NCBI GenBank assembly: GCA_949152475.1
Contig: OX424567.1
Span: 29,537,402 to 29,601,401, forward strand
DNA length: 64,000 bases
Direction of reading: 5' to 3'
Source of the DNA: Terebella lapidaria
Lineage: Eukaryota > Annelida > Polychaeta > Terebellida > Terebellidae
Both the position numbers and the translations under genes were made by a program. How positions within the stretch are numbered: the stretch's first letter is position 1; every line of letters begins with the position of its first letter. Below, one piece after another: positions 10,004 to 56,726 of this stretch. The notes beneath the pieces were generated by a model, which was given only the letters and a program-made list of their open reading frames with translations, was not told the DNA's origin and ran no database searches.

Positions 10004-10006
10004 TAA

Positions 10007-30200: not shown

Positions 30201-33200
30201 ATGAAGTTGCTTGTGTTGATTTGTTTTCTCTCCTCTGCAGTCAGTTTCAACAATTTTACGGGCCCTTCTGATTTCAATTATGAGATTTTTATGAATCAAC
30301 AGAGCAAGGAAGAATTTGACAGAAACATACTAACGTCCTACACGAAAGCCCTCCTCTTTGAAACACTGAAGGATGTCGGTCGCACCACGTATAGTATGAA
30401 AGAAGTGACCACTATGCTGTTCGGTGCGATCCGAGACATCATCACCTTGCGACATGAAACAAGTGTAATATGTCAACGAAACACCACCAGAAAAGTGGCT
30501 TATCTGCAGTATGCTGGGGGATTTGACATTCATGCCAAGTGTGACCATGAATGGTTCATTACAACCTCCCAGCTGGCATCAATCAACATCACTATCATTG
30601 CCCAGGAAATGTCATTCTTGCCACCATCCTGCAAGAACAGTAACCACTTGCTCATATCTCAGGTGCTGCCCAAGTACAAGAAGATTGCCTACCTCTGTGG
30701 CAGACCTCGGCCCTCGACGTTCCTAGTTCTCGGGTACAGGTCCAGGATCCATGTACACACGACCAGAGTACACGACAATACCCGTGTTGTACTGCAGTAC
30801 CAGAGCATACCCAAACTATCGGGAGTCAAAATTGTATATGAGAAGCATGAGAGTAAAGATGATGATAAGTGGGAAGAAACCACTCGGATTTGGACGCATG
30901 CACAGGACCTAGCAATACTGGAAAACAAATATATCATTAGTTTTACCCTTTCTACTTACCTGAGTATGCGAGTAGTGGTGAACTGCAATATGGCACGCTT
31001 GAACTCTTACCAATATGTGATGTTCATCGATGGACCTACCTTTCTCCACAACTCTATTTTTGATTTTCCCGTTACAGCCAAAAATACTACAGTTGGATCT
31101 TATAGATGGGTTTCTTCTTTGAATGATGCATCATTAATTTATTATTCTGAACGTGTACAATATGGTTTTGGTTTATCATTCGAGTACACATCCCGTGAAT
31201 GCCCAAGCTCTGTATGTGCCCTTCAAGAATCGTCAGTAGGACAAAATGTTCAGCACTCATTTGTCGAGCAGAACAACACATCACTATCCATATTCTCATA
31301 TGACATTGCGAATAACCAAGACGGGTTCCTTGCGGCTGACATCGAGCATCTAGAGGTGGGTGGATACACACAGAATCAGTGTTTGTATGGCGGTGTATTC
31401 CTTGTGTATACAGACATAATTGATGTGGAAGGTCACAAAACTTTCAACAGCTGGCTAGTGGCTGCATTTTGTTCTCAAGCGACCGTGGAAGGCCTGAGAG
31501 CATTCCAGGAGTCAGGTCACAAGTTGCACTTCACCAGAGGGGTATTGAATATCTTCATCAAAACTTACAACATGATATCACATGTCGAACTGGACTGGTC
31601 AATATTTCTATCGAGATGCCCTGGAATACAGAACATTAACAGATACATGCGGATATTTCCTGGTACATACAGTATTCAAGGACTGGATTATACCTATGTT
31701 CGCTCAAACATGGAGATTGAGGTTGTCCCAACAAACAGTGGTGCACTCTTTATTTTTGACTTGATAACACTGGACGTTCCTTGTGCCCATTACGGAATCA
31801 TCCCATCAGACGACGTCCACTGGATCTTCGTTCCTGCAGAAAAACTTGAAACGTACTCTGAAACTTATAATGGTCTTCTTTATGATCCATGGACATCAGA
31901 CATCGTTGTATCGTATCAGTCTCGACTTTCTATAAACACAATGACACGAGGTACTGAGGGTACCATTGTAACTCGAACCATCTTTAATATCCAAATTTTT
32001 TCGAGCAAGATGAAAAGTGGCAAAGTCAGGGATAGTCGCTACAACAAAAATACAAATTATCTTTACTCTAATTTTGCCAATCCCGTATCCTTCCCTGACA
32101 TCACTGACCAACCCCTGGGGTGTTTCGGAACGGTTTCTATGCTACCCACTCCACACTCCTGTGAGCACCCCCAAATAATAATTGCTTCAAAACCTGAAGG
32201 AATTTCAAAAATTGCGTGTGCATCCATTGTACTGGAAATAAACCATTTCGAGGCTCCAATGCAAGATTCTCCCTCGTATAGCTGGTTGTGGGACTTTTCT
32301 ATTGAAGCTCTCACTACAGGCGTGTACATATCGTTTGAAACTTCGTCAAAATCCTGTTTTCTGAGTGTTTTGCCAAAGATGGATGTGCATTTGGTTAGGA
32401 AGTACACGTGGCGAAGAAGTGTTGATGATGATGAATCGATGCTCTCTATGGATATATTGGAAGATGTGGCTGATGGTCTATTTTCTTCCATTCCTATCAT
32501 CAGTGAGGTTCGTGTTCTAGTCTTCTTCACAGGACTGAAACAGGACAGACCTTGTAGACTACAGCTCACGTACAAAACAAGGAGATTCCCTGAGATTGAA
32601 GGTTCTCTCTTGTTCCTTCGTCGTGGTCACATATTACGAGTTGACGAATCTGTTCAAGCTGATTTCAGATGGGCTCATATGTGTTCCAAGAGCCGGTGTT
32701 ATCGCCTGTTCTTGGGCAAAACTTCACTCCCATGGGATGCTGCTAACCGATTGTGTAAGGCTGATGGTTACAATCTCCTAAGTCTTCAGACTGATACGGA
32801 ATGGGCCATGATCAAGCTCTGGCTCTATAGTGAACATGTAGTACACCTCTCCAACATTCTGCAAAGTCAAATGTATACAGCATGGGTCCTGCATATCGGA
32901 TTAGTACACAAACATGAGGTAAGCTTCTTCATTAAAATATGGCACATCTTTTACGTTGCTATCGTTTATGTTTCAGTCAACTCACTGTATATTTTACAGG
33001 AAGTTGCTACCCAATGGACAGATGGAACATATTACATATATCGACATTGGTACACCAAGTCCCACTTTAGGTTCCCGTCCCAAGTCTATTCGTGTGCACC
33101 AGACTGTCGGGAGACCGCTGATGAACCCTACTCACACTCAATACTGGAACCACAGCACAGCGGGGACGTGAAATGTGTTGGTGTTATTTTATCTGGACAT

Positions 33201-36167
33201 TCAGACGAGTGGGTCACTTTGCCATGTGGTAGAGCAACAGTTCGTAGTTCTGTCATTTGTGAAACTGGCAATATGAAGGAAGAGCAACTTGATGAGGATG
33301 GTAATGAAATAGCAAGATTTACTAGCCACGAAGAAGCACAGAATATAAAAACAGAGTTTCAATGGAAAAGCCAACGTTGTCCACGAGGTTTATTGCCATT
33401 GAAAGGAACATGTTTTCGTTTGTTGAGTGTGACTGATATTCGAAATGTGAAAGAACTCATTTCCACAACCCGCCATGAAGTCTTTTCTGCAAAGTACCTA
33501 CAACTCCTACACTTTTATTTGAAAACTTGGCATATATCAGGATATATACTAGCGTTGACAGTTGACAATGATCACCGAACAACATGCACATTGCTAGACT
33601 CGAATCTTGATTCCCTTACCATGAACCATCTAAAGATAGCAGAACAGGGTGAATGTGCTGACATGAACACTACCCATAGCTACATTCTACAAGTATTTGA
33701 CATGATTGAGGTAGAACAGACATGTCCAAGCCCACTATTCCAGTGTGATACTGGAATGTGCATACACCGGGACCACCGTTGTGATGGAGATCTAGACTGT
33801 GCAGGAGGGGAAGATGAGTCAGACTGTCCAAAACCCTGCCAGATCATCAAAGCTAACGAGTCTTCTAACTGGTGTGAAACATGCGGCAGTTTTCACTTCC
33901 AATGCCCAGATGGCGAATGCGTAGCGCTACCTAAGGTAACTTTTACGATTTATCTCAGATATGTGGGTATGTATAATATGCATGTAAGCATATGATGTTA
34001 ATTGTTCCTGTGCTCGCCCATTGTACAGGTCTGTGATGGAGTGATGGATTGTTGGAGTGCCACTGATGAAGCCAGATGTGAACAGGAAATACACGAGCCT
34101 CACTCATCCCACGGGCCACAGATCAGCAACATGGCAAATTGTAGCTTGCTTCTTGAAGATTATCCTATGTTACAAAACGATTTGATTCCAGACTGTGAGA
34201 ACGCTTCAGATGAGACAGAATTCCTGTCCTTTTTATCAGGCGAGGTGCAAAGCGAACATGCTTGTTCGAACACGTTGCATGCAGCTTGCCATCCAGGTTA
34301 TTATTCAGTGTGCTATCCAAGACATGCAACTTGTACATACAGACAAGGGCCTTATGGTCTGCTAGGTCCGTGTCGGAATGGGGGGCATCTACACAACTGT
34401 GTCCTCCACGAATGTCCAACCATGTTCAAATGTCCTGATGCGTTTTGTGTACCTTGGAATTTTGTGTGTGATGGCAAGAAGCAATGTCCAGAAGGAGACG
34501 ACGAGGCGGGGTGTGGTGATTTGAGGCACTGTCAAGGGAGGATTAGATGTAAGGAGACAGATGTGTGTGTGGATCCCAGTCAGATATGTGATGGTATCAC
34601 AGACTGTCCCCTGAGAGGGGAGGATGAGAACAACTGTGCTGTCTTTGCATGTCCTCCTTCCTGTTCTTGTCTTGGACGGCACATTGACTGCAGTGATCGA
34701 GGATTAGTGAATGCTCTACAAATACCAACAGGAACTCTAGCATTGAGTTTAGCATTTAATATACTGCAATATATACCCACAATCAATGTCCCAGGCATGC
34801 TATCTGTGAACATATCATTCAATGCTTTCAGGGTTGTAAACTCATTAGCGTTTGAATTCCTCGGAAACCTTTTACACCTAGACTTATCATATAATCAAAT
34901 ATACAGTATACATGCCAACGCATTCATGGGACTCCACAATCTTATTCATTTGAACCTGGATGGCAACCAGATTATGGCTTTGTTTTCTACAAGTTTTCAT
35001 GGATTATTGTCTCTGCCACGATTGGCATTGCGGGGTCTCGTTGTGGATGACTTGCCAGACTGCATGTTCTCTCATCTCAAATCCGTCCAACATCTGAGTT
35101 TTCACTCGTCATCAATAAGAGAAATGACAGATTCCACATTCTGTCAAATTCCCATCTTGACAACGTTGAGATTCGATGACACAAATATTGTGGAAAGCAT
35201 ATGGGGCAACCCCTTTTCTGGTCCCAAGCCCAATACCAACATCCTGTTCAGTCCACAAGGAATCTGCTGCATGGCCAAGAGACTGTGTGGCGGGTATGGA
35301 GGGGAAATATGTTACATTGTTCTCCCCAAGGCCTCAGTTCCGATTTTCCACATGGCTGTCATAGTTTTAACCACATTTGCTTCAACCATGCTCGTGGCCC
35401 GTGGAAACTATAATAGAATTGTCAAGAACAGCAGTGTCATTTCGACCCTTTCGGCACTTTCGACCTGTACCTACCTCTCACTCTTCATCGTGTTGTTGGA
35501 TGAATGGCAACAGCAAACCTTTTCAGCTCATACAAAACCTGTATTATCTTGTCTAGTTATCAGAATACTTTCTCAGTGTGCACCACTATTATCATCCTTT
35601 TTGCTACTCATGACAGCATTTGTACGAATGCAGGCAATTGTGTACGCAACAAAAATGAGAACAGCCAGGAATACTGTTTTGACCAGGATTCTGGTATCAG
35701 GATGTCTTGCCATTTTTGCAAGCAGCCTGACAATGTATACAACATTCGGTGCCACAGAGATCGACTCAAATAAAGAGTGTGCATTTCTTTGTCTGAGCAA
35801 ATACAACTCACGCATTAAATGGGTGCAAATTGCAATATGTATATTTTGTGCGATGCCACTTTGCGTCATCACAGCTGTATCGGGCGTACACTTTTTGAAA
35901 GGAAAGCAGCATCTAGATGCCCTGAAAGTGATGCGAAGAAAACACCAAGAAGTGGGGCTGTTGGTTAGGATGTCACTACTGCCAATCCTTAACTTGGTGG
36001 TGTGGTCAGTCGTGTTTGTTTCAATCGTTAGCGACCAGGATTGCACAACTATGACTTACCTAACTGTCTATCTGTTGCCTTTGCTCTCTATTCTACACCC
36101 TGTGTTCAACACGTTAACCGGGTCAGCTTTCCTCCAGGGCTGTGTCCGTTCGGGATATGGAAGATGA
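30201..36167 (+). CDS. CUB-like / C-type lectin / LDLa / LRR seven-helix receptor, gene A
   Basis: Exons 30201-32918, 33000-33935 and 34029-36167 join in frame to 1930 residues. Introns are 81 nt (GAG|GTAAGC..TTACAG|G) and 93 nt (AAG|GTAACT..TACAG|G). Order: signal peptide (1-16); a large ectodomain with a CUB-like module (about 114-200, with C114, C144 and LCG at 165-167) and further beta-rich cysteine-containing segments; a C-type lectin domain (about 828-995, with WTDG and paired C-terminal cysteines); a diverged second lectin-like segment (about 1033-1145); LDLa modules at about 1148-1183, 1201-1235, 1347-1380 and 1386-1421 (CDGDLDC, CDGVMDC, CDGKKQC, CDGITDC); LRRNT at 1426 and about six LRRs; an LGR-type hinge (GICCMAKRLC); seven helices (about 1656-1917); and a tail of about 13 residues. 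The LDLa/LRR/7TM half resembles relaxin receptors and GRL101. Helix 3 ends FVRM instead of DRY, and helix 7 has HPVFN instead of NPxxY. It is a cell-surface receptor of unknown ligand. Start chosen because the signal peptide follows it and the dead copies share it. Confidence 0.88.
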
Positions 36168-36598
36168 ATTTATATACCTGATATGATTCACAGTTCTGTA
36201 AGTATTATTGATATGGTTGTTTAGCTATTCCACGATATTGTGACGTGATTCGGACGAAAAATTATAATATCATTGAGCAACATGGGTGTTTATACAGGAA
36301 GTCATCTTTCCATCTTTGTATGGAGCAGATGTGCAATGGTTATATTTACATTACCATGTATTCAGCGTTTCACTGAATGTATATTGACTGATTACTAGAA
36401 TTCACTATGAGTGAACTAGCTATGTGTGAGCTTAGACGAAAGTGTGATAAGTGTTAACCTGAGGATGTACCTGTTTAAGAGGGCATAGCAGGATCATAGA
36501 ACAGTACATGAGTGAAACGTGATAGCCACAAATCAGCAATCCAGTGAATTGTAGCTGTGTGAATAGTATTTCATGTTGTAGAAGTCCTGGCCTTTTAA
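36168..36598 (+). other. 3' flank / UTR of gene A
   Basis: Matches the sequence after gene B (52109-52350 and then 54654-54800) with moderate divergence. No strong polyadenylation signal is seen before the inserted foldback element. Confidence 0.5.
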
Positions 36599-37014
36599 GG
36601 TAGTACGCTACAGACAGTGAGGGGAGGGGGTCAAAGCGTTTTTTAATATAAACAACTGTATCAACATAATCTAGCGCTTCGAAATGATATATTTTATAGA
36701 GTAACTGTTCAGCATCCTAAAACTGAAAAGAAAATAGGGGGTCACCGTATCCGTTCGCATGGAAAACACGATGCAAGATGTGAATATGGACAAAAAAATG
36801 TGCAAAAATGCCATGATTTATGTCATTTTAGGTAAATGTGTGTGATTTTGATCGAATATGTAGAAGAAACGAGCACGGTGACCCCCTATTTTCTTTTCAG
36901 TATTAGGATGCTGATCATTTACTCTATAAAATATGTCATTTTGAAGAGATAATATTCAAGAATTGACTTTTAAATTTTGACTCTTCGTTACCTCACTGTT
37001 TGTAGCGGACTACG
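36599..37014. mobile_element. 416-bp foldback MITE with TTAA target duplication
   Basis: Flanked by TTAA (36595-36598, 37015-37018). The ends GTAGTACGCTACAGACAGTG and, inverted, GTAGTCCGCTACAAACAGTG are near-identical. Further inside, GAAAAGAAAATAGGGGGTCACCG and its complement also pair, so most of the element is one imperfect palindrome. A related copy is at 60493-60911. TTAA targeting is seen in piggyBac and Kolobok elements, and the sequence alone does not decide between them. Gene B's downstream region is uninterrupted at this point. Confidence 0.85.
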
Positions 37015-37029
37015 TTAAATCGGATAATG

Positions 37030-37310
37030 TGCCTGTTAAAACATAGTGCATTCAACTTGTCGTCTGGGTTATTATTCTGGGTCGTTTCAAACAACTTGCA
37101 CATACGTACAAGGGCCTTGTGGTCCACCAGGTCCATGTCGGGATGGGGGACTTCTTCATGATTCTGTTCCCCCACAAATCTCCAACCATATTCAAATATC
37201 CTGATGTATTTTTGTGTACCATGTCATTTTGTGTGTGACGGCAAGAAGCAATGTTCAGAAGGTGACGACGAGGCGGGGACGTGGTGACTTGAGGCACTAT
37301 CAAGGGAGAT
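37030..37310 (+). pseudogene. Receptor pseudogene fragment: third LDLa region
   Basis: Resembles gene A from 34270 to 34550 (ACAAGGGCCTTGTGGTCC, TGTGTGACGGCAAGAAGCAA, GACGACGAGGCGGGG) with frameshifts. It continues into a 3'-UTR-like tail that ends with AATAAA at 37455-37460. The same arrangement occurs at 54790-55270. Confidence 0.8.
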
Positions 37311-40300
37311 GTTCGCGGGCATCAAATTGGTTGTCATCGTAGTAAAGGATTGCTATCTACCTCTGCCTTTATATTTAAATATCTCTGTATGTATCAATGT
37401 CGTTTTGTGTTCGTGCCTTAATTGATGATATCATGATGTACTGACGACAATGACAATAAAAGTTCATTGAATGACACCAGTGTTTATTTACACCATAATG
37501 TGTCCAGCCTTTCATTGGGTGTTACCTAATAAATGGTACACTACATGTGATCATAGCCTGTCTAAACATCGGACTGAAAGTTTTTAAACTGAGATTTTTT
37601 TAATGAATAAATTTTGTAATAAAGATTATTTTTATGATGACGATTTCATTCCTTTTTTTCAACTTTGAGAAAATTGCTTCTGCGATACTACACATAAATT
37701 TGTGGTCTTTGGTATGATGCATCATCTCAGTAGCCTTTTGGCTTGTGATTTGGCTTGCTATTGGTACTAGATAACATCAGTGGCAAAAATAACAATGTCC
37801 CCAAAGACCTAATTGCTGAAAAATGCGTTGAATTTGGCAATAAACACAATCGCGGCGAAACCGAATTCGATCAACAATAAACACAAAGTTGTATATATCT
37901 TTGCCCCAAATTGTGCTAGAGACACAAAGTAAGTACCTAAACATATGTTTTTGATGGCAAGGAATGCAATAAAAATAATTTCAACTACTTCAGCATACCC
38001 CTTCTGCATGAAATCCAAGATGGCGACCATCAGAATCGCATATTTTGTCATATTTTTTCTTAAAACTTTAATATTTTAAGGAACTCTTTGGAGATTATCA
38101 ACAATTTTGTGCCTTAATACATGCTATTGGTACTTGATAACATCAGTGGCAATGATAACAATGTCCCCAATGCCTTAAATGCTAAAAAATTACCTTGTAT
38201 TGGCAATAAACAGAATTGCGAAAAAACCGAATTTAATCAACAATAAACAAAATGGCATGGTTTTTTTGCTACTAATTGTGCTAGAGACACAAACTTGGTA
38301 CCTAAACTTACGTTTTAGAGGTCAAGGAATGCAATGAAATTGTTTTCAACTACTTTAGCATAGCGCTCCGGCATGAAATCCAAGATGGCGTCCATCATAA
38401 TTGCATATTTTTTCATATTTTGTTCATGAAACTTTGATATTTTAAACAAATGTGTGGTCATTATCACCAATTATGTGCTCCAATACATGCTACTGGTACT
38501 CAAAAACATCATTGGTAGAACTAACAATGTCCCCTATGCCTTAATTGCTCAAGAATATGTTGACTTTGGCAATAAACACAATCGCGACAAGACCAAAATT
38601 GTTCAATGATAAGCACAAAATTGCATACATGTATATCTTTTACCCTAATTGTGCGAACTTTGTACCTAAACATATGTGTTAGAGTTTAGGAAATGCGATA
38701 ATATTGTTTTCAACTACTTTAGCATACTCCATTAGCATGAAATCCAAGATGGCAGCCACCAGAATGGCATATTTTAAAATACTTTTTCTTAAACTCTAAT
38801 ATTTTAAAACAAAATGTAGCCATTATCACCAATTTTGTGCCTTAATTACATGCTGGTGGTGCTTAACAACATCAGTGGTTAAAATAACAATGTCCCCAAT
38901 GCCTCAACTGCTAAAAGATATATTGAATTTGGCAATAAACACAATTGCAGCAATATTGAATTAGAACACAATCACTAGTTAAAGTCATGTAATGTGCATG
39001 AACATGACGTTAAATGTCATTAAGTTAGTTCATTTATCTGAAATATACACATGTACATGTACATTGCAAAAGCCATTTCCAACAAACGAAGCATTCATCA
39101 TGGGAAAAATCTAAGATGGCCACAATTATGCATAGCTGAACGAAGATAATGTACTCTCTTCACCGATATTTGGTCTAGAATTTGGTTTATTCTTATATTT
39201 CCATGTATGTAGATTTCAAATATGTACTTAATTTGGCATGAAATGAACTACTCCTCTTGCAAAAGAACATATCAAGGTCAAAGTGGTTCTGTGAAATGCC
39301 AAATCCAGGTACATATATTGTAATATGCCAGTGAATATGTGTTATAAGATAACGACTAATATGTCCATTGTTTTCACACATGCAGGATATAACGACACAC
39401 ATGTATTGGCCTTTATTATTGTGTCAGAAGTCAGGTTTACAACATTAAGTCATCCACATTCACTCCGTTCACACCATTGAGTCATCAGTAGTAAATCAGT
39501 TAATAAATATGTCATCAGTTATCACTCAGGTAAGAACATTACGTTACCAACATTCACTCAAATACCAACATTACCATAAGTATTCTGTGACCACATATTA
39601 CTCAATTTAACAACATTAAGTCAGACAAAGTCTCTTTTTTGTATGATCTTGATTTTGAGCAACTGTTCAGATAACAACATATTCAATGGTATGTGGTAAA
39701 AGAATACTTACGGTAGTATTGATATGTGAGTAGATGTTGGAGAAATGATGTTCTTACCGAAGTGATTACTGATGACATTTATTGACTGATTGACTACTGG
39801 TGACTCAATGGTGTGAACTGAATGATTGTGGATGACTTGATGTTGTAAACCTGAGTTCTGAAACAGTGATAAAGATTATCTTTTTGGCCAATACATGTGT
39901 GTCGTTGTATCCTGCATGTGTGAAAACTTAGATATGGACATATTAGGCATCATTCTAAAACAAACATTCACTGAAATATTACAATGTAATTTACCTGGGT
40001 TTGGCATTCCATAGAACCATTTTGACCTTATATGTTCTTTTGCAAAAGAACATTTCATGCCAAATTAAGTACATATATATTTGAAATCTACATACGTGGA
40101 AATATAAGAATAAACCAAATTCTAGACCAAATATCGGTGAAGAGAGTACATTATCTTCGTTCAGCTATGCATAATTGTGGCCATCTTGGATTTTTCCCAT
40201 GATGAATGCTTCGTTTGTTGGAAATGGCTTTTGTAATGTACATGTACATGTGTATATTTCAGATAAATGAACTAACTTAATGACATTTAATGTCACGTTT

Positions 40301-42453
40301 ATGCACATTACATGGATTTAACTAGTGATTGTGTTCTAATTCAATATTGCTGCAATTGTGTTTATTGCCAAATTCAATATATCTTTTAGCAGTTGAGGCA
40401 TTGGGGACATTGTTATTTTAACCACTGATGTTGTTAAGCACCACCAGCATGTAATTAAGGCACAAAATTGGTGATAATGGCTACACATTTGTTTTAAAAT
40501 ATTAGAGTTTAAGAAAAAGTATGATAAAATATGCCATTCTGGTGGCTGCCATCTTGGATTTCATGCTAATGGAGTATGCTAAAGTAGTTGAAAACAATAT
40601 TATTGCATTTCCTAAACTCTGACACATATGTTTAGGTACAAAGTTCGCACAATTAGGGTAAAAGATATACATGTATGCATTTTTGTGCTTATCATTGATC
40701 AATTTTGGTCTTGTCGCGATTGTGTTTATTGCCAAAGTCAACATATTCTTGAGCAATTAAGGCATAGGGGACATTGTTAGTTCTACCAATGATGTTTTTA
40801 AGTACCAGTAGCATGTATTGGAGCACATAATTGGTGATAATGACCACACATTTGTTTAAAATATCAAAGTTTCATGAACAAAATATGAAAAAATATGCAA
40901 TTATGATGGACGCCATCTTGGATTTCATGCCGGAGCTCTATGCTAAAGTAGTTGAAAAGAATTTCATTGCATTCCTTGACCTCTAAAACGTAAGTTTAGG
41001 TACCAAGTTTGTGTCTCTAGCACAATTAGTAGCAAAAAAATCATGCCATTTTGTTTATTGTTGATTAAATTCGGTTTTGTCGCAATTCTGTTTATTGCCA
41101 ATTCAAGGTATTTTTTTTAGCATTTAAGGCATTGGGGACATTGTTATCATTGCCACTGATGTTATCAAGTACCAAAAGCATGTATTAAGGCACAAAATTG
41201 TTGATAGTCTCCACAGAGTTCCTTAAAATATTAAAGTTTTAAGACAAAATATGACAAAATATGCGATTCTGATGGTCGCCATCTTGTATTTCATGCAGAC
41301 GGGGTATGCTGAAGTAGTTGAAATTATTTTTATTGCATTCCTTGCCATCAAAAACATATGTTTAGGTACTTACTTTGTGTCTCTAGCACAATTAGGGGCA
41401 AAGATATATACAACTTTGTGTTTATTGTTGATCGAATTCGGTTTCGCCGCGATTGTGTTTATTGCCAAATTCAATGCATTTTTCAGCAATTAAGTCTTTG
41501 GGGACATTGTTATTTTTGCCACTGATGTTATCTAGTACCAATAGCATGTATTAAGGCACATAATTGTCAATAATGGCCACACAGTTCCTTAAAATATTAA
41601 AGTTTTAGAAAAAATATGACAAAATATGCGATTCTGATGGCCGCCATCTTGGATTTCATGCTGAAGGGATAGGCTGAAGTAGTTGAAAATTTTTGTTTTA
41701 TTTATTTTCGATTTTTTCCATGTCCATGTTTCCCATTACCAACCATACTAAACTGAATGATGCTCAACGGACAACGCAAAGCGATGAAACCCTAATGCGG
41801 GTCATCCAATGAATAATGCATGTTAGCATCATACCACAGACCACAAATTTATGTGTAGTATGCAGAAGCAATTTTCTCTAACTTGAGATAAAATGAGTGA
41901 AAACATTGTCATAAAAATAAACACCGAAGTTCATACCATGATAACTGCACATTTATAGACGTAGTTAGTTACTTATTAGTTTGGTGATCTCTCGACAGTC
42001 CACGTGATGAGACGTGTGGTGTATCTATTAACGAAAATCCCAGTTTAAAAGTTTCAGTCTGATGTTTGGACGATAAAATTGTTCCAAGTACATTTTCTAT
42101 ATGGTAGCTATGAACACATGTAGTGTACCATTCATTAGGTGACACCCAATGAGAGGCTGGAGACATTATGGTGTAAATACATGTATATCACATAACCATT
42201 CTACAATTGACCCACATAAAGATGTCCAAGTAAATTAACACTAGTGCCATTCAATGAATTTGTATTGTCATTGTCGACAGTACATCACGATATCATCGAT
42301 TAGGACATGAACACAAAATAACATTGGTACAAACAGAGTGATTTCAATACAAAGGCAGAGGTAGATAGAAACCCTCCACTACGATGACAACCAATTTGAT
42401 GCCCGCAAACATCTTTGCATCTAACCCTCCCTTGACAGTGCCTCAAGTCACCA
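37290..42453. repeat. 5.2-kb inverted repeat (foldback) between the receptor genes
   Basis: Left arm 37290-39588, right arm about 39693-42453, central spacer about 100 bp. The arms pair from GGTGACTTGAGGCACT at 37290, which is found inverted at 42453, inward to the centre. Each arm contains an LDLa-gene tail (outer 400-700 bp) and then four or more tandem units of about 364 bp, and then a diverged inner part with ACATTAAGTCATC-type motifs. The right arm has one extra partial unit (about 41520-41690). No transposase is encoded. Confidence 0.9.
37750..38960. repeat. Tandem 364-bp units in the left foldback arm
   Basis: AACATCAGTGGCAAAAATAACAATG-type text starts near 37776, 38139, 38505 and 38868, and AAATCCAAGATGGCGNCCAT occurs near 38013, 38376 and 38740. 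Units differ at many positions, so the array is old. The right-arm counterparts lie at about 40365-41690. Confidence 0.85.
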
Positions 42454-42454
42454 G

Positions 42455-43337
42455 TAAGTGCCGAGATGGTTGAAATGATACTGCTGTTCTTCACAATTCT
42501 ATTATACTTTCCACGGGCCACGAGCATGGTTGAAGAAAATGTGGTAAAACTATGACAGCCATGTGGAAAACCAGAAATGAGGCTTTAGGGGAGAGCAATG
42601 TGACATATTTCCCCTCCATACCTACCACGCAGTCTCTTGGCCACGCAGCAGACATGGATGTTGGTATTGGGACCAGAAAAGGGGTTGCCCCATATGCTTT
42701 CTACAGTATTTGTGTCATCGAATCTCAGCGTTAACAAGATAGGAATTTGACAGAATGTGGAATCGGTTATTTCTCTTATTGATGACGAGTGAAAATTCAG
42801 ATGTTGGACGGATTTGAGATGAGAAAACATGCAGTCTGGCAAGTCATCCACAATGATACCTTGCAATGTCAATTGTGGCAGGGACAATCAACCACACAAT
42901 ATGGTTCCCATCCAAGTTCAAATGAGTAAGATTGTGGAGACCCACGAATGCACTGGCATGTATACTGTATATTTGATTATATGATAAGTATACATATTAA
43001 ATGCTAAACTCAATGCTAGAGTTGCTGTTGGTATTTGTGGAGCATTCACTAATCCTCGATCACTGCTGTCAATCTGCCGTCCAAGACAAGAACACAAAGG
43101 AGGACATGCAAAGACAGCACAGTTGTTCTCATCCTCCCCTCTCAGGGGACAGTCCGTGATACCATCACATATCTGACTGGGATCCACACACACATCTGTC
43201 TCCTTACATCTAATCCTCCCTTGACAGTGCCTCAAATCACCACACCCCGCCTCGTCGTCTCCTTCTGGACATTGCTTCTTGTCATCACACACAAATTGAT
43301 GCCCCCATTCTGACTTGGACCTAGCAGACCACATAAC
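42455..43337 (-). pseudogene. Receptor pseudogene, exon 3 (LDLa to helix 1), inverted
   Basis: Reading leftward it covers LDLa 3-4 (KKQCPEGDDEAGC, CDGITDCPLRGEDENNC), the LRRNT (CPPLCSCLGRQIDSS), LRR pieces (DDLPDCMFSHLKSVQHL, IREITDSTFCQIP), the hinge and helix 1 / loop 1 (MLVARGKYNRIVKNSS). Compared with the intact gene it lacks about 80 nt in LDLa 3 and parts of the LRRs, and has frameshifts. It stops within SALT and runs straight into an LDLa remnant belonging to the foldback arm. Confidence 0.88.
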
Positions 43338-43424
43338 GACACTTATGAAACACTGTGTACCATTGTGCGTGCCACCTAGTATGGTCTGGTTTTCTCAATG
43401 AGAAAAAATCCTCAACTGGTCTTT

Positions 43425-43890
43425 TAGCAGGACGAACTATCCATATTCTCATATCGCATTGCGAATAACCAAGACGAGTTCCTTGCGGCTGACATCGAGC
43501 ATCTAGAGGTGGTTGGGTACACACAGGATCAGTGTTTGTATGGCGGTGTATTCCTTGTGTACAAAGACATATTTGATGTGGAAGGTCACAAAATTACCAA
43601 CAGCTGGCTAGTGGCTGCATTTTGTTCTCAAGCCTACCGTGGCCTAAAATGGAAGGCCTGAAAGCATTCCAGGAGTCAGGTCACAGGTTGTATTCCACCG
43701 AGGGAATTTTGACTATCTTCATCAAAGCTTACGATGCAAATTACAAATACAAATTAAGTTGCTCTATATTACTGTCGAGGTGCCCTGGAATACAGAGCAC
43801 GAGCAGACACATGCGGATATTTCCTGGTACATCCATCATTCTAATACTTGTGAACATCCGATCACAACAATTCTTTTGGAAAAATATTGT
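43425..43890 (+). pseudogene. Receptor pseudogene fragment: mid-ectodomain
   Basis: Matches gene A over about 31285-31670: GCGGCTGACATCGAGCATCT, AGTGTTTGTATGGCGGTGTA, ATGGAAGGCCTGAAAGC and CATGCGGATATTTCCTGGTA. It has frameshifts and a diverged end shared with the relic at 27520-27920. It sits head to head with the inverted exon 3 relic to its left. Confidence 0.88.
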
Positions 43891-44009
43891 AAAGCTTATA
43901 TTTATCAGTGCCAGATTATCCCTCGTACTTGTAACAGGTTGTAGTCCTTTAATCATAGAATCATAGTCAACAGTATAGACAATATCTAACATACACATGC
44001 ACAACAAAT

Positions 44010-44330
44010 AAACATGCAATCGTTGACCAACCTTTACAATAAAATTAATTAAGGTCGGTTTACGTATTGACTTAGTCCTAACAAGTTTGATCTCTTCTAA
44101 CGCAATATGACAGTAGCTACAGTTAAAACGGTATATCCTATTATCCCCGTAGCTAATCAAGATCAGCTTGGAAATTATGTCTGAGGCTAGAGATAAAAAA
44201 AAAACTCTACATATCTTGTTTCGCATCTAACCTTCATGGATGTTGTTAGGGAAGCATCATGCGGTGGCTTGTGTTGATGTGTTTTATAAATTCTCTTCAG
44301 CCATTATCGACAATTTCTGCGTAATCTTAC
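44010..44330 (+). pseudogene. Receptor pseudogene fragment: promoter flank and start of exon 1
   Basis: The 5' flank (ATTAATTAAGGTCGGTTTAC...) and the first codons (MRWLVLM, from 44260) match those of the intact genes. Homology fades after about 20 codons at ATCGACAATTTCTG, with the frame lost. Confidence 0.8.
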
Positions 44331-45110
44331 ATGTGTATAATTCAGAGGTTAAATGCCGGCCATAGAAAAACTGGGCGGAAAGATTTCACATCAAGACCGA
44401 CTGGCGCCAGATAGCCAGAGCATGGCGAAAATGTTTTGCCTTGTCCACTGGTCACTCATAACCAACAATATAATTTCCTAGTTTTCGAACTAGAAAGAAA
44501 TTATTTCCTCTTCAGGGTCCTTTTTTCTTTGTCGGATGTTTACAAGTTTATTCACTTGTTATATACTGGGGGTTATATGAGTTGTGGTCAAAGCTGAGTC
44601 GTCCATACAGCACGACTTCAGCTCGAGGTATGTTGTGAGGATCTGTGTACACATTGTATTGCCATTAAAGCTGCAGACACCCACGACGGCCACGCTTAAA
44701 GACGACCCAACGACTCCAGGGTATGGCTGATGTTGGTCTGACAAAAACTGCACCTCTTCCGGGCCCGTTGTTTTATCATGACAAAGAAACAGGAACACAT
44801 GGTTTCAACTTTCACCACAAACCTGAAAACCCTGGCCCAAGCCAACAGCCATGATTATATGGTAAGTGCTCATCCAGCACTGTGAGAAATTGAAGACCTG
44901 GAACACAGACAACAACCTTCATTGCTCATGAGGATCCTTGTATATATGTATTCAATACTTATAATTCACTCACCAAATGTTTGGAAATGGTCAAATGGCA
45001 TGTGCTGATCTGTTGTACGCCACTCATGTTCCTTCCATGATGTATGTGATTGATTATCGCTGGCGTTGACGTCACGGTTCAGTCAATAGTTTAACAATCG
45101 ATGGTAGGGT
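44331..45110. other. Intergenic, nothing recognised
   Basis: Unique sequence with no coding, RNA or repeat feature that I can support. Confidence 0.4.
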
Positions 45111-45237
45111 GACACTATGGAAGCACGATCTGTACCACAAAGAGTTTCTAGTGTTTCACAAGTGTCTAATGAAATCATGCTGTATCCAGAATGGCACTAG
45201 ACACTCGCACCACACAGCTTATGTTCCCTGGATCGTT

Positions 45238-45735
45238 TTGGGTTTTCTCAACACTTTACATCATTGGCTTCCGTTGACTGGGAAAGCAAGATTTGACATT
45301 CCCCGTCTCGGCGTAAGGCATTGCTTACTCTATACATGTATGAGTGGTATTTGATATATGGCATGTTCTGGGACAAAAACTTGTATAACTTCAGAAAATG
45401 TTGGGTTTTCTCAACACTTTACATCATTGGCTTCCGTTGACTGGGACAGCACGATTTGACATTCCCCGTCTCGGCGTAAGGCATTGTTTACTCTGTACAT
45501 GTATGAGTGATATTTGATACATGGCATGTTCTGGGACGAAAACTTGTATAACTTCAGAAAATGTTGGGTCTCAACACTTTACATCATTGGCTTCCGTTGA
45601 CTGGGACAGCACGATTTGACATTCCCCGTCTCGGAGTAAGGCATTGTTTACTCCGTACATGTATGAGCGGTATTTGATACATGGCATGACCAAAACTTGT
45701 ATAACTTCAGAAAAGCTCTAAAGTTTGTTACCCGC
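45238..45735. repeat. Three tandem 164-bp units upstream of gene B
   Basis: TTGGGTTTTCTCAACACTTT-type starts lie at about 45238, 45402 and 45566, each followed by CATCATTGGCTTCCGTTGAC, GACATTCCCCGTCTCGG and GTACATGTATGAG. Only one unit is present at the matching place before gene A. Confidence 0.88.
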
Positions 45736-45929
45736 CACAAGTATATAATTGAAACTTGATCAGATTTGGATACAATGCAATTCTGAGACATACATGTGAG
45801 CATCTTCAATATGATCAATGCGAGATGAGTTGAAGTTTGAACCATATTGAATCCGAACCCGGATCACCTAACAATGTAGAATTCAAACTGATGCCATTGC
45901 TAGAACAACAAACATAATCGTTCACCAAC

Positions 45930-46141
45930 CTATACAATAAAACTAATTAAGGTCGGTTTACTGATTGACTCAGTCGTGACAAATGTAATCCGGGTATGAT
46001 TGCCACTGCAGTCAGAAGATAATCCTTCACTTTATCCCCAACGCCAATCACGATCAGGTTACAAATTACCCCAGAAGATTGTAAATACACTACATATCTT
46101 GTTTTGCATCTAACTTCCACGAATGCCATTAAGGAATCATC
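45930..46141 (+). promoter_or_regulatory. Conserved 5' flank of gene B
   Basis: Counterpart of 29960-30200 (AACTAATTAAGGTCGGTTTA, GATTGCCACTGCAGTCAGAA, CTTGTTTTGCATCTAACTTC). A regulatory role is inferred from position only. Confidence 0.4.
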
Positions 46142-49100
46142 ATGAAGTTGCTTGTGTTGATTTGTTTTCTCTCCTCTGCAGTCAGTTTCGACAATTTTAC
46201 AGGCCCTTCTGATTTCAATTATGAACTTTTTACGAATCAGCAGAGCAAGGAAAAATTTGGCAGAAACATATTAACGCCCTACACGAAAGCCCTTCTCTTC
46301 GAAACACTGAAGGATGTTGGTCACACCACGGATAGTATGAAGGAAGTAGCCACTGTGTTGTTTGGTGCGATCCGAGACATCATCACCTTGCGACACAAAA
46401 CAAGTTTAATATGTCAACAAAACACCACCAGAAAAGTGGCTTATCTGCAGTATGCTGGGGGATTTGACATTCATGCCAAGTGTGACTATGAATGGTTCAT
46501 TACAACCTCTCAGCTGGCATCAATTAACATCACTATCATTGCCCAGGAAATGTCATTCTTGCCACCATCCTGTAAGGACAGTAACTACTTGCTCATTTCT
46601 CAGGTGCTGCCCAAGTACAAGAAGATTGCCTATCTCTGTGGCAAACCTCGGCCCTCAGCGTTCCTAGTTCCCGGGTACAGGTCTAGGATCCATGTACACA
46701 CGACCAGAGTACACGACAGTACCCGTGTTGTACTGCAGTACCAGAGCATACCCAAACTATCAGGAGTTAAAATTGTATATGAGAAGCGGGAGAGTAAAGA
46801 TGATGATAAGTGGGAAGAAACCACTCGGATTTGGACGCATGCACAGGACCTGGCAATACTGGAAAACAAATATATCATCAGTTTTACCCTTTCTACTTAC
46901 CTGAGCATGCGAGTAGTGGTGAACTGCAATATGGCAAGCTTGAACTCTTACCAATATGTGATGTTTATCAATGGACCTACCTTTCTCCACAACTCTATTT
47001 TTGATTTTCCTGTTACAGCCAAAAATACTACCGTGGGATACTATAGATGGGTTTCTTCCTTGAATGATGCATCAATAATTTATTATTCTGAACGTGTACA
47101 ATATGGTTTTGGTTTATCATTCGAGTACACATCCCGTGAATGCCCGAGTTCTGTATGTGCCCTTCAAGAATCGTCAGTAGCACAAGATATTCAGCACTCA
47201 TTTGTTGAGCAGAACAACACATCATTATCCATATTCTCATATGACATTGCGAATAACCAAGATGGGTTCCTGGCGGCTGACATCGAGCATCTAGAGGTGC
47301 GTGGGTACACACAGGATCAGTGTTTGTATGGCGGTGTATACCTTGTGTACACAGACATGTTTGATGTGGAAGGCCACAAAATACTCAACAGCTGGCTAGT
47401 GGCTGCATTTTGTTCTCAAGCGACCGTGGAAGGCCTGAGAGCATTCCAGGAGTCAGGTCACAAGATGCATTTCACCAGAGGGGTATTGAATATCTTCATC
47501 AAAACTTACAACAAGATATCACATGTCGAACTGGACTGGTCGGTATTTCTGTCAAGATGTCCTGGAATACAGAACATTAACAGATACATGCGGATATTTC
47601 CTGGTACATACAGTATTCAAGGACTGGATTATATCCATGTTCCCAAAAACACTGAAGTGAAAACTGTCCCAACAAACAGTGGGGCACACTTCATTTTTGA
47701 CTTCATAACACTGGACGTTCCTTGTGCCCATTACGGAATCATCCCATCCGACTACGTCCACTGGATCTTCGTCCCTGCAGAAAAACTTGAAACGTACTCT
47801 GAAACTTATGATGGTCTTCTTTATGATCCATGGACATCAGACATCGTTGTATCGTATCAGTCTCGACTTTCTATAAACACAATGACACGAGGTACTGAGG
47901 GTACCATTGTAACTCGAACCATCTTTGATATCCAGATTTTTTCAAGCAAGATGAAAAGTGGCAAAGTCAGGGATAGTCGCTACAACAAAAATACAAATTA
48001 TCTCTACTCTAATTTTGCTAATCCCGTATCCTTCCCTGACATCACTGACCAATCCCTGGGGTGTTTCGGAACGGTTTCTCTGCTACCTACTCCACACTCT
48101 TGTGAACCCCCTCCGATAATAATTGCTTCAAAACCTGAAGGAATTTCAAAAATTGCGTGTGCATCAATTGTACTGAAAGTAAACCATTTCGAGGCTCCAA
48201 TGCAAGATTCTCCCTCGTATAACTGGTTGTGGGACTTTTCTATTGAAACTCTCACTACAGGCGTATACATATCGTTTGAAACTACGTCAAAATTCTGTTT
48301 TCTGAGTGTTTTGCCAAAGATGGATATTCATTTGGTTAGGAAGTACACGTGGCGAAGAATTGTTGATGATGATGAATCGATGCACTCTATGGATATTTTG
48401 GAAGATGTGGCTGATGGTCTATTTTCTTCCATTCCTATCATCAGGGAGGTTCGTGTTCTAGTCTTCTTCACAGGACTGAAACAGGACAGACCTTGTGGAC
48501 TACAGTTCACTTACAAAATGAGAAGATTCCCTGAGATTGAAGGGTATCTCTCGTTCCTTCGTCGTGGACACATGTTACGAGTTGATGAGTCTGTTCGAGC
48601 TGATTTCCAATGGGCTCACATGTGTTCCAAGAGCCGGTGTTATCGTTTGTTCTTGGGCAAAACTTCACTCTCATGGGATGCTGCTAACCAAATGTGTAAG
48701 GCTGATGGTTACAATCTCCTAAGTGTTCAGACTGATACGGAATGGGCCATGATCAAGCTCTGGCTCTATAGTGAACATGTAGTACACCTCTCCAACATTC
48801 TGCAGAGTCAAATGTATACAGCATGGGTCCTGCATATCGGATTAGTACACAGACATGAGGTAAGCTTCACCATTAAGATGTGGCACATCTTTTACGTTGC
48901 TATTGTTTACAATTCAGTCAACCCACTGTATATTTCACAGGAAGTTACTACACAGTGGACAGATGGAACATATTACATATATCGACATTGGTACACCAAG
49001 TCCCAGTTTAGGTTCCCGTCTCAAGTCTATTCATGTTCACCAGACTGTCGGAAGACCAGTTATGAACCCTACCCACACTCAATACTGGAACCACAGCACA

Positions 49101-52100
49101 ACGGGGACGTGAAATGTGTGGGTGTTATTTTATCTGGCCATTCGGACCAGTGGGTCACTTTGCCATGTGGTAGAGCAACAGTTCGTAGTTCTGTCATTTG
49201 TGAAACTGGCAATATGAAGGAAGAGCGACTTGATGAGGATGGTAATGAAATAGCAAGATTTACTAGCCACGAAGAAGCACAGAATATAAAAACAGAGTTT
49301 CAATGGAAAAGCCAACGTTGTCCACGAGGTTTATTGCCAGTGAAAGGAACATGTTTTCGTTTGTTGAGTGTGACTGATATTCGAAATGTGAAAGAACTCA
49401 TCTCCACAAATCGCCATGAAGTCTTTTCTGCAAAGTACCTACAACTCCTACATTTTTATTTGAAAACTTGGCATATATCAGGATATATACTAGCTTTGAC
49501 AGTTGACAATGATCACCGAACAACATGCACATTGCTAGACTCGAATCTTAATTCCCTTACCATGAACCACCTAAAGATAGCAGAACAGGGTGATTGTGCT
49601 GACATGAACACTACCCATAGCTACATTCTACAAGTATTTGACATGATTGAGGTAGAACAGACATGTCCAAGCCCACTATTCCAGTGTGATACTGGAATGT
49701 GCATACATCGGGACCACCGTTGTGATGGAGATCTAGACTGTGCAGGTGGGGAAGATGAGTCAGACTGTCCAAAACCCTGCCAGATCATCGAAGCCAACGA
49801 GTCTTCTAACTGGTGTGAAACATGCGGCAGTTTTCACTTCCAATGCCCAGATGGCGAATGCATAGCGCTACCTAAGGTAACTTTTACGATTTATCTCAGA
49901 TATGTGGGTATGTATAGTATGCATGTAAGCATATGATGTTAATTGTTCCTGTGCTCGCCCATTGTACAGGTCTGTGATGGGGTGATGGATTGTTGGAGTG
50001 GCACTGATGAAGCCAGATGTGAACAGGAAATACACGAACCTCACTCATCCCACGGGCCACAGATCAGCAGCATGGCAAATTGCAGCTTGCTTCTTGAAGA
50101 TTATCCTATGTTACAAAACGATTTGATTCCAGACTGTGAAAACTCTTCAGATGAGACAGAATTCCTGTCCTTTTTATCGGGCGAGATGCAAAGCGAACAT
50201 GCTTGTTCAAACACACTGCATACAGCTTGTCATCCGGGTTATTATTCAGTGTGCTATCCAAGACATGCAACTTGTACCTACAGACAAGGGCCTTATGGTC
50301 TGCTAGGTCCGTGTCGGAATGGGGGGCATCTACACAGCTGTGTTTACCACGAATGTCCAACCATGTTCAAATGTCCTGATGCGTTTTGTGTACCATGGAA
50401 TTTTGTATGTGATGGCAAGAAGCAATGTCCAGAAGGAGACGACGAGGTGGGGTGTGGCGGTTTGAGGCACTGTCAAGGGAGGGTGAGATGTAAGGAGACA
50501 GATGTGTGTGTGGATCCCAGTCAGATATGTGATGGTATCACAGACTGTCCCCTGAGAGGGGAGGATGAGAACAATTGTGCTGTCTTTGCATGTCCTCCAT
50601 ACTGTTCTTGTCTTGGACGGCAGATTGACTGCAGTGATCGAGGATTAGTGAATGCTCTACAAATACCAACAGAATCTCTAGCATTGAGTTTAGCATTTAA
50701 TATACTGCAATATATACCCACAATCAGTGTCCCAGGCATGCTATCTCTTAACATATCGTTCAATGCTTTCAGGGCTGTAAACCCATTAGCGTTTGAATTC
50801 CTCGGGAATCTCTTACACCTAGACTTATCATATAATCAAATATACAGTATACATGCCAATGCATTCATGGGTCTCCACAATCTTATTCATTTGAACTTGG
50901 ATGGCAACCAGATTGTGGCTTTGTTTTCTACAAGTTTTCATGGATTATTGTCCCTGCCACGATTGGCTTTGCGGGGTCTCGTTGTGGATGACTTACCAGA
51001 CTGCATGTTCTCTCATCTCAAATCCCTCCAACATCTGAGTTTTCACTCGTCATCAATAAGAGAAATGACCGATTCCACATTCTGTCAAATTCCTATCTTG
51101 TTAACGTTGAGATTCGATGACACAAATATTGTAGAAAGCATATGGGGCAATCCCTTTTCTGGTCCCAAGGCCAATACCAACATCCTGTTCAGTCCACAGG
51201 GAATCTGCTGCATGGCAAAGAGACTGTGTGGTCAGTATGGAGGGGAAATATGTTACATTGTTCTCCCCAAAGCCTCAGTTCCGGTTTTCCACATGGCTGT
51301 CATAGCTTTAACCACATTTGCTTCAACCATGCTCGTAGCCCGTGGAAAGTATAATAGAATCGTGAAGAACAGCAGTATCATTTGGACCCTTTCGGCACTT
51401 GCGACCTGTACCTACCTTTCACTCTTCATTGCATTGTTAGATGAATGGCAACAGCAAACCTTTTCAGCTCATACAAAACCTGTATTATCTTGTCTAGTTA
51501 TCAGAATACTTTCTCAGTGTGCACCACTATTATCATGCTTTTTGCTACTCATGACAGCATTTGTACGAATGCAGGCAATTGTGTATGCAACAAAAATGAG
51601 AACAGCCAGGAATACTGTTTTGACCAGGATTCTGGTATCAGGATGTCTCGCCATTTTTGCAAGCAGCCTCGCAATGTATACAGTAATCGGTGCCATAGAG
51701 ATCGACTCGAATAAAGAATGTGTATTTCTTTGTCTGAGCAAATACAACTTATACATTAAATGGGTGCAAATTGCAATATGTATATTTTGTACGATGCCAC
51801 TTTGCGTCATCACAGTTACCTCAGGCATACACTTTTTGAAAGGAAAGCAGCATCTAGATGCCCTGAAAGTGATGCGAAGAAAGCATCAAGAGGTGGGGTT
51901 GTTGGTTAGGATGTCGCTACTAGCAATCCTTAACTTGGTGGTGTGGTCAATCGTTTTTGTGTCAATCATAAGCGGCCTGGATTGCACAACTATGACTTAC
52001 ATAACTGTCTATGTGTTGCCTTTGCTTTCTGTTCTACACACTGTGTTGAACACGTTAACCAGATCAGCTTTAATCCAGGGCTGTGTTCGTTCGGGATATG

Positions 52101-52108
52101 GAAGATAA
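46142..52108 (+). CDS. CUB-like / C-type lectin / LDLa / LRR seven-helix receptor, gene B
   Basis: Exons 46142-48859, 48941-49876 and 49970-52108 again give 1930 residues. Every exon and both introns (81 and 93 nt) have exactly the lengths of gene A, 15941 bp away, so the two differ only by substitutions or compensating changes. The domain order is as in gene A: signal peptide, CUB-like ectodomain, C-type lectin domain, four LDLa modules, LRRNT and LRRs, CC hinge, seven helices and a very short tail. Replacements are spread throughout, for example VSFNNFT to VSFDNFT near the start and CGGYGGE to CGQYGGE in the hinge. Helix 3 keeps FVRM, while the helix 7 motif is HTVLN, having lost even the proline kept in gene A. 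There are no stops or frameshifts, so it is probably functional. It lies in tandem, same strand, downstream of gene A, with decayed family members between. Confidence 0.88.
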
Positions 52109-54789: not shown

Positions 54790-55270
54790 GTTGTAGAAGT
54801 CCTGGCAGATGATGTGCTTGTTCAAACAAAGAGCATTCAACTTGTCATATGGGTTATTATTCTGGGTAGTTTCAAACAACTTGCACATACGTACAAGGGC
54901 CTTGTGGTCCACCAGGTCCATGTCGGGATGGGGGAATTCTACACACTTCTGTTCCCACGAATGTCCAACCATGTTCAAATGTCCTGATGCGTTTTGTTTA
55001 CCTTGGAATTTTGTATGTAATGGCAAGAAGCAGTGTCCAGAAGGCGACGACGAGGCGAGGTGTGGTGACTTGAGGCACTGTCAAGGGAGGGTTAGATGCA
55101 AAGAGACATATGTTCGAGTATATCACATTGTTGTCATTGTAGTGAATGATTGCTATTTACTTCTGCCGTTTATTGAATAACTTTGTATGTTACAATGTCA
55201 TTTTGTTTCCATGTCCTAATGGATGATATCGTGATGTACTGACGACAATGACAATAAACGTTCATTGAGC
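54790..55270 (+). pseudogene. Receptor fragment: LDLa 3 and part of LDLa 4 with polyadenylation signal
   Basis: An open frame reads HECPTMFKCPDAFC, VCNGKKQCPEGDDEARC and HCQGRVRCKETY, then diverges to a stop at 55180. AATAAA follows at 55253-55258. It matches gene B over about 50200-50500. The third LDLa keeps its six cysteines but has CNGKKQC where the intact genes have CDGKKQC. It lacks a start and upstream domains, so it is probably a relic, though it could act as an alternative terminal exon. Related tails are at 37030-37460 and, inverted, at 42240-42453. Confidence 0.75.
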
Positions 55271-56726
55271 AGCACCAGTGTTCATTTACTTGGTCATTTT
55301 TGATGTGGGTCGATTGTAGAATGGTCATCTAATATACATGTATTTACACCATAATGTGTCCAGAATTTCGTTGGGTGTCAGCTAAAAAAATGATACACTA
55401 CATGTGTTCATAGCTACCATATAAAATTATACTTGGAACCATTTTATCGTCTTGACATTGGAATGACACTTTTTAAACTAAGACTTTTTTCAATCAGAAC
55501 GCTACATGCTTCATCACGTGGACTGTCGAGAGATCATCTAACTAATGAGTAACTTACCATATCTATAAATGTGCAGTTATCTTGGTGTTGACTTCGGTGT
55601 TTGATTATCTTCATGATGATGTTTCAATTCATTTTTTTTCCTGAAGTTTGAGAAATTTGTTTCTGCGATACTACACGTAAGTTTGTATATTTGTGGTCTG
55701 TGGTATAATGCTGGTATGTATTATTTATATGACCGTTACTAGGGTTTCATCGTTCGCGTTGTCAGTTGAGCATCATTCAGTTTAGTATGGTTGCTGATGG
55801 GAAACATGGACATGGACAAAAAAAATGAAGACTCAATATTCCGAGTGAAAAAATTTGAGGAACTTGATAAACCTCCAAATATGACCAAAAGGAGGTGAAA
55901 TCAGGTGAAATTCCGGTCCCCACTTGTGCCACCATCACGAATTCTGAAAAAATTATCCAATGAAGTATCAACCAGATGGTGATGAAGTCCATAAAATTTC
56001 ATGGAGGCAGCTAGTAATGTGAGAGCATACGACAGCGTTTTTTGTCGCAGCGGTTTTAGAGACGAGCTGCACACGATGAACAAAATCCTCATATCTGCAG
56101 TTACGTCTGGGGAAATAAATCGTGAAGAAAAAACTGAGGTTTGTGTGAGATGATACAGTTCATTAGGGTTGGGCTTGCTTCTAGTTTTTGGTGTTCTAAT
56201 TGTTTTATCATGGGATTTTACGTGGGAACTTTACATCGGTGCCATACCGTTCATTGTAAAATGAACACCAGTAAAGTACGTGATGGATGGATAGTACGTG
56301 ATAGTACGTGATGGAGTAAAGTACGTAAAGAAGTAAATGACAGTTTCCCTGTCATTTTTGTTTTCTCTCACTTCGTATGCCTGATATGACTTTCTGTCCC
56401 CGGACTATGAGATTGGATAACGGACCCTGTTTTGTTTGCTCGGAATACTTGATACTGGGTATTGATTCCACGTCTATTACTATAACTGAGTCGGTGTCTT
56501 TGCTGGTGGATAATTATTTGTCCCCGCTGGCACCATCAGCTCAGTAAACCTAGTATAGTTAGGTTTAACCTAGTATTTGAAATGACTATGCAGTACAAAG
56601 ACAACGGAAACAAACTGGTTGACACGGCGCCCAGTATAAAAAGGTGTCAAAAAGCTGTGTCCAAGGGCACGGTCACAGCTTCCTCATAGACCGGGGGCCA
56701 AATCCGGTTTTTGGGAATTTGGTTTG
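55271..56726. other. Downstream duplicated tail, then unrecognised sequence
   Basis: About 55271-55830 matches the outer part of the foldback arms (inverted at 41730-42240, direct at about 37480-37720), for example TCATCACGTGGACTGTCGAG. From 55840 to 56726 nothing is recognised beyond short TAGTACGTGATGGA repeats near 56275-56330. Confidence 0.6.

Follow-up and report, generated by a model that had tools for sequence, protein, structure and literature searches.

The stretch of Terebella lapidaria DNA analyzed here (the window, 64,000 nucleotides) harbors two genes, A and B, which lie on the plus strand and span positions 30201-36167 and 46142-52108, gene B repeating the layout of gene A with a shift of 15941. 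The spliced models of both genes yield a predicted product of 1930 residues with one terminal stop, and all four introns (81 and 93 nt in length) are of the GT-AG type and in phase 0. The genes and their component features are the following.

30201..32918, plus: gene A exon 1, an open frame with a donor at 32919; signal peptide, linker, CUB1, segment, CUB2, further segments and first half of the C-type lectin-like domain (CTLD)
30201..30248, plus: gene A putative signal peptide, assigned by eye, sequence MKLLVLICFLSSAVSF
30471..30818, plus: gene A CUB1, diverged, residues about 91-206, assigned by hhalign to the CUB of paralogues
30819..31325, plus: gene A segment between CUB1 and CUB2, with no segment match and no PDB match
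31332..31625, plus: gene A candidate CUB2, weakly supported, residues about 378-475, aligned by hhalign with the corresponding segment of the paralogues (76.8%, 2.1e-5)
32679..33263, plus: gene A CTLD, split by intron 1, assigned through the family profile
32919..32999, plus: gene A intron 1, 81 nt, phase 0, GT-AG
33000..33935, plus: gene A exon 2; CTLD second half, linker, LDLa1 and first half of LDLa2
33723..33827, plus: gene A LDLa1, Pfam Ldl_recept_a
33882..34079, plus: gene A LDLa2, interrupted by intron 2, Pfam LDLa
33936..34028, plus: gene A intron 2, 93 nt, phase 0, GT-AG
34029..36167, plus: gene A exon 3; remainder of LDLa2, a stretch that by eye resembles a degenerate LDLa, LDLa3, LDLa4, leucine-rich repeats (LRRs), seven-helix domain (7TM) and stop
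34413..34637, plus: gene A LDLa3 and LDLa4, Pfam
34650..35288, plus: gene A LRR N-cap and leucine-rich repeats, LRR_8 at 2.9e-17
35340..36131, plus: gene A 7TM of the LGR/relaxin-receptor kind with eroded activation motifs, by family profile and motif columns
42585..43334, minus: decayed, inverted, partial copy of the exon 3 core between genes A and B, seen in ORFs and as a 97% inverted repeat with gene A
46142..48859, plus: gene B exon 1, with the gene A layout and a 91% identical protein
48941..49876, plus: gene B exon 2, gene model as in gene A
49970..52108, plus: gene B exon 3, gene model as in gene A

The two proteins differ at 149 residues, with a dN of 0.037 and a dS of 0.131 (NG86). 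Divergence of the introns was uneven: intron 2 (33936-34028 and 49877-49969) differs at 1 of 93 bases, as compared with 10 of 81 in intron 1 and the overall dS of 0.13, a near-identity for which gene conversion or a constrained intron are possible explanations.

The minus-strand core matches at the decayed copy map to C14:29579854-29580315, which contains stops, and to 29580385-29580699, and further decayed fragments of the receptor family were noted at 43622-43966 and 54809-55180 (both plus) and, by eye, at about 37200-37300 (plus). The remainder of the window is rich in repeats. Positions 1-16000 are duplicated in tandem at intervals of about 7.7 kb (e.g. 1963-2262 and 9712-10011, 100% identical), and a proline-rich 151-aa ORF is repeated on the minus strand at 7175-7630 and 14846-15301. 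Two opposed satellite-like arrays of 366-base period, with arms 96-98% complementary, occupy 37756-41689 between genes A and B, and a long inverted repeat with 1017-base arms (95%) extends over 56705-63655, its right arm overlapping a 366-base-period array at 62037-63146. Scans of the window for tRNAs (ARAGORN, bacterial code) and with Rfam returned no matches.

The introns of gene A fall within domains, intron 1 splitting the CTLD just past its HIGL motif and intron 2 splitting the second LDLa. Since intron 1 is open in frame, the list of open reading frames reports exon 1 and what follows as one 1264-aa ORF that ends in intron 2. The LDLa profile reached 90.4 bits over four stretches (E up to 10) in the spliced 622-residue stretch, as compared with 46.0 bits and two stretches in exon 2 alone and 32.1 bits and three stretches in exon 3 alone, a difference that is expected if intron 2 divides one LDLa. 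The CTLD and LDLa2 become whole only once spliced, which constitutes good sequence-based evidence for a single transcript. The gene anatomy proposed by the first-pass annotation, with two short introns and a product running from signal peptide to seven helices, is hence borne out by splice sites, split domains and profiles.

The genome search (762 Mb, 438 contigs, with the window on C14) placed these genes in a broader context. Counted from the best candidates of the search, and hence as lower bounds, at least 45 merged ectodomain places (from two queries) and at least 54 merged core places were identified. Among the matches listed, 39 of the 45 ectodomain places have a core no more than 8 kb downstream on the same strand; these pairings use 38 distinct core places, and one of the 39 ectodomain places is a 195-base fragment near gene A. 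Sixteen core places had no ectodomain partner, and inspection by hand of the DNA upstream of two of them revealed an ectodomain exon of 838-863 residues in both. The six partnerless ectodomain places comprise fragments, a copy interrupted by stops and a duplicate whose core is missing from the listed matches. About 40 places thus hold both parts, some of them decayed, and the genes belong to a large family, not only to a pair. A third copy (93%) with exons 1 and 3 open is located beside the window at C14:29636844-29642790 on the minus strand. The description of the locus as a tandem pair accordingly stands insofar as both genes are real, but it overlooks this nearby copy and the genome-wide family. 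Two ectodomain exons at C3:32111497-32113944 and C3:32151027-32153474, 40 kb apart and with equal match scores, could stem either from duplication in the very recent past or from a region assembled twice.

The arrangement seen across the genome also bears on an explanation in which the locus would comprise two adjacent genes: exon 1 and part of exon 2 would encode a secreted protein with CUB and CTLD, and exon 3 a GRL101-like receptor of its own. In favor of this explanation, exon 1 and exon 3 both form a single long open frame, and their joining in one transcript is a prediction from sequence. However, both introns interrupt domains, in phase 0 and at consensus splice sites; the order and strand of ectodomain and core are conserved at 39 of 45 places, among the matches listed; and two-exon paralogues (L043 and L044) encode the CTLD second half (by eye), LDLa and LRR in one frame, with L044 also presenting a 7tm_1 match over the cut-off. 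We therefore reject the two-gene explanation as highly improbable, and the one-transcript reading advanced earlier for these genes gains support from the same domain-cutting introns and conserved order.

In the core of the predicted receptor, the four LDLa stretches lie ahead of the LRRs and pass the Pfam cut-off of 24.1 bits in spliced gene A, the LRR match exceeds its own cut-off by a wide margin, and the LRRNT N-cap fell just below its cut-off (24.5 versus 25.8 bits). The LRR ectodomain directly precedes the 7TM, and LGR4, LGR5 and RXFP1 were among the PDB matches of gene A. The 7tm_1 profile reached 12.7 bits in gene A alone, under its cut-off of 30.5, and matched six of the eight members of the family 7TM profile (A7, built from eight 7TMs) at E up to 10. 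Searched against the PDB, this profile returned relaxin receptor 1 (RXFP1) as its best match (6.1e-18), with TSHR (4.1e-14), LHCGR (4.7e-14) and the FSH receptor also matched. RXFP1 shares with the window proteins the combination of LDLa and LRR; to our knowledge, it contains one LDLa and no CUB or CTLD. On their predicted sequence, genes A and B present the features of type C LGRs: a 7TM of the LGR kind, LRRs before the 7TM and LDLa modules before the LRRs.

The region upstream of this core proved harder to classify. The HMM domain search proposed as a check by the first-pass annotation recovered LDLa and LRR in gene A, but it missed the CUB and lectin domains in exon 1 and left 7tm_1 under its cut-off. 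No Pfam family was detected in gene A exon 1, and a PDB search at E 10 returned no chain. Window-type exons were aligned with their relatives in a set of 13 sequences (A1), comprising genes A and B and 11 of the 30 ectodomain loci L009-L038; those left out were L009 and L011, which correspond to genes A and B, L035 and L036, which resemble L033, and 15 partial, broken or overlapping pieces. Identity to gene A was 19-28% in nine of the 12 other members, and Pfam CUB (PF00431) was detected in none of the 13.

A search of the genome with Pfam CUB, on the other hand, led to large open frames beside related cores on C3 and C8. An alignment of these canonical-CUB paralogues (A3, eight of the 16 rows of canonical-CUB ectodomain matches) contained CUB in all eight members at E up to 1; two paralogues scored singly reached 47.4 and 49.2 bits against a cut-off of 21.4, and the A3 profile matched cubilin in the PDB at 4.5e-27. 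Profile-profile comparison aligned the exons of the window type with the canonical-CUB ones along 729 columns (98.0%, 1.5e-13). All hhalign figures given here refer to single pairs and not to a database search. Segment by segment, like matched like for CUB1 (96.0%, 4.7e-9), the CTLD (96.5%) and the second module (76.8%), and no match was obtained for the middle and two later segments. CUB1 also aligned with the Pfam-CUB region of the paralogues (76.6%, 2.1e-5). For the second module, the paralogue segment profile returned ten PDB matches at E 10, of which seven are CUB proteins (PCPE-1 at 0.0037, MASP-2 at 0.11, TSG-6 at 1.5) and three are a coat protein (0.1), a zinc finger and a hydrolase. 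The middle segment, searched as a paralogue profile (A9), had no PDB match at E 10. An internal repeat relating CUB1 and CUB2 was only hinted at, with 38.9% (3.2e-4) for A1 CUB1 against A3 CUB2 and 0.3% within A3. A third exon clade (A8; L062 and L063) aligned with A1 over 384 columns (98.7%, 1.7e-16); it showed no Pfam CUB and only 0.8% against the canonical-CUB profile. AlphaFold2 models of residues 84-480 and 85-210, computed from the two near-identical sequences of genes A and B only, had mean pLDDT values of 28.6 and 38.2, too low to be informative on the fold.

By homology through paralogues, these data argue for two CUB modules in the window genes, the second weakly supported. CUB modules are hence present as originally described, but the extent of about 830 residues given for CUB-like sequence was too large, since the two modules measure roughly 100-115 residues each. 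Of the 826 residues that precede the CTLD, 596 lie outside the signal peptide and the two CUB modules and carry no domain assignment.

The assignment of the CTLD follows a similar logic. Pfam Lectin_C was not found in the window gene itself, and the CTLD rests on the family profile, whose C-terminal end (A1) matched the secretory PLA2 receptor best in the PDB (1.2e-8), followed by LY75 and mannose receptor 2. Five of the 13 A1 sequences matched Lectin_C with E values of no more than 10, the best being 2.7e-4, and the two third-clade sequences scored 22.8 and 21.7 bits around the cut-off of 22.6, so that one of the two just passes. The canonical calcium-dependent sugar site of C-type lectins combines WND with EPN or QPD. 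In nine CTLD copies checked for these motifs, WND and QPD were absent from all nine and EPN was present in one (L041, without WND), with genes A and B reading EPQ and WVT. The lack of WND makes calcium-dependent sugar binding unlikely, and protein binding by the CTLD appears more plausible on its sequence. The earlier suggestion that these receptors recognize glycans thus finds no support in the CTLDs checked.

To assess the 7TM itself, a motif table was compiled for 11 of the at least 54 merged core places, with the 7TM positions designated D2.50, R3.50, E/DRY and NPxxY. Both extracellular cysteines and R3.50 are kept in all 11 aligned 7TMs. D2.50 is replaced by A or S in the four 7TMs of the window clade and is D in the seven others; the same four carry V before R3.50 (VRM), and their NPxxY motif is replaced by HPVFN in three and by HTVLN in gene B. 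Across the table, D or E before R3.50 is kept in two of the 11 and the NPxxY tyrosine is missing in all 11. One member (L061) retains the full DRY motif, together with NPxxH, and the family spans canonical to eroded forms.

The loss in the window clade of D2.50, of the acidic residue before R3.50 and of the N and Y of NPxxY indicates that G-protein coupling there is probably altered or absent, with signaling that would be non-canonical or constitutive, or with the proteins acting as co-receptors or scavengers. Purifying selection nonetheless persists between copies despite the lost activation residues. The dN/dS ratio between genes A and B is 0.28 over the whole protein, and omega in the 7TM is 0.27-0.39 over six pairs. 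Comparison of gene A with the third copy gave an omega of 0.51 for exon 1, higher than between A and B, and that of gene B with the third copy an omega of 1.18 for CUB1, a short stretch with few changes.

The same residues could be read as those of pseudo-receptors, in which the 7TM of the window clade would anchor the protein in the membrane or make it a decoy, so that ligand is captured but no G-protein signal follows. The substitutions at D2.50, before R3.50 and in NPxxY, together with persisting selection, are in line with such a role, but R3.50 and the pair of extracellular cysteines are conserved throughout the 11 sequences, and the purifying selection acting on the 7TM points to a function beyond anchoring. 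We consider this explanation tenable but rather unlikely.

Parts of this architecture have been reported elsewhere. In Biomphalaria sudanica, the SudRes2 region associated with schistosome resistance encodes GRL101-like GPCRs with CTL, LDL and LRR domains, and the authors describe the N-terminal CTL domain as unique to these genes (PMC12297450). These proteins resemble those of the window in combining CTL, LDL class A, LRR and GPCR on one protein and in forming clustered paralogues, mostly absent from the first annotation; they differ in that CTL is named as N-terminal and the term CUB occurs zero times in the main text, whereas 826 residues precede the CTLD here (PMC12297450). This separation is one of description, and an N-terminal exon may have been missed in SudRes2. 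According to a review passage, Nematostella LGR4 and Trichoplax LGR-5 carry CUB among their N-terminal domains and share with the window genes the combination of CUB with LDL, LRR and a type C 7TM, but they have LDL at the start of the N-terminus and extra CUB and fibronectin type II domains, and the passage names no C-type lectin domain (PMC9545775). Lymnaea GRL101 and type C2 LGRs share multiple LDLa, LRRs and an LGR 7TM with the window genes (PMC8286064, PMC11863921, PMC4079206); the GRL101 ectodomain is described as an LRR series plus an LDLa series, with one gene per ambulacrarian species studied (PMC8286064). The Adhesion GPCRs of amphioxus that carry CUB, LDLa or lectin domains belong to a different class (PMC2246102), and passages of a survey on the C-type lectins of bivalves contain the term CUB and none of the terms 7tm, GPCR, leucine or LDL (PMC10140915).

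The arrangement, which the first-pass annotation had called unfamiliar, is therefore partly precedented, since CTL-bearing (PMC12297450) and CUB-bearing (PMC9545775) LGRs are published. CUB and CTL together on one LGR were not found in the open-licence PMC literature, among the matches listed, and unremarked database entries may well exist. In that literature, we found no report of CUB and CTLD jointly on an LDLa-LRR-7TM receptor, which would be what is new here.

Taken together, we favor, with a probability of roughly 0.55, the reading that genes A and B are intact-looking members of a genome-wide family of giant LGR-type receptors, in which an outer coat would capture ligand and the core would signal. 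From the outside in, the predicted order is signal peptide, CUB1, segment, CUB2, segments, CTLD, linker, four LDLa, LRRs and a class A 7TM akin to those of relaxin and glycoprotein-hormone receptors. The outer combination of CUB and lectin-type domains suggests sensing of large ligands, and the CUB-CTLD coat may capture a large protein or a particle-borne ligand. The LDLa-LRR hinge could then relay this capture to the 7TM in the manner of relaxin receptors, and the family, expanded in this lineage, might serve recognition in immunity, in chemosensation or of self.

The best-known role of LGRs is that of hormone receptors. A core resembling relaxin receptor 1 would fit a receptor for relaxin or insulin-like peptide hormones, along the lines of the ligand hypothesis for GRL101, with the CUB-CTLD region merely modulatory, and GRL101 has been argued to be a possible second IGF receptor (PMC8286064). 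A family of about 40 places, whose ectodomains have diverged strongly, contrasts with the one GRL101 gene described for the ambulacrarian species in that source (PMC8286064), and we regard the peptide-hormone explanation as improbable.

Within the favored reading of a ligand-capturing family of giant LGR-type receptors, a bolder extension, which we advance as speculative and doubtful, is that some 40 receptors form a germline-encoded repertoire for surface recognition built on a hormone-receptor core. The CUB-x-CUB-x-CTLD-LDLa-LRR-7TM coat would have diversified and at least one clade would have moved off canonical G-protein activation while remaining under selection, and a receptor for hormones would have become one that recognizes patterns or self. 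With activation residues lost by degrees among its members, the family also provides a natural gradient along which to ask which functions the 7TM retains. Furthermore, a CUB/lectin-coated LGR family, together with the published association of a CTL-bearing, GRL101-like cluster with schistosome resistance of snails (PMC12297450), would make a role in recognition and immunity, as opposed to endocrinology, directly testable.
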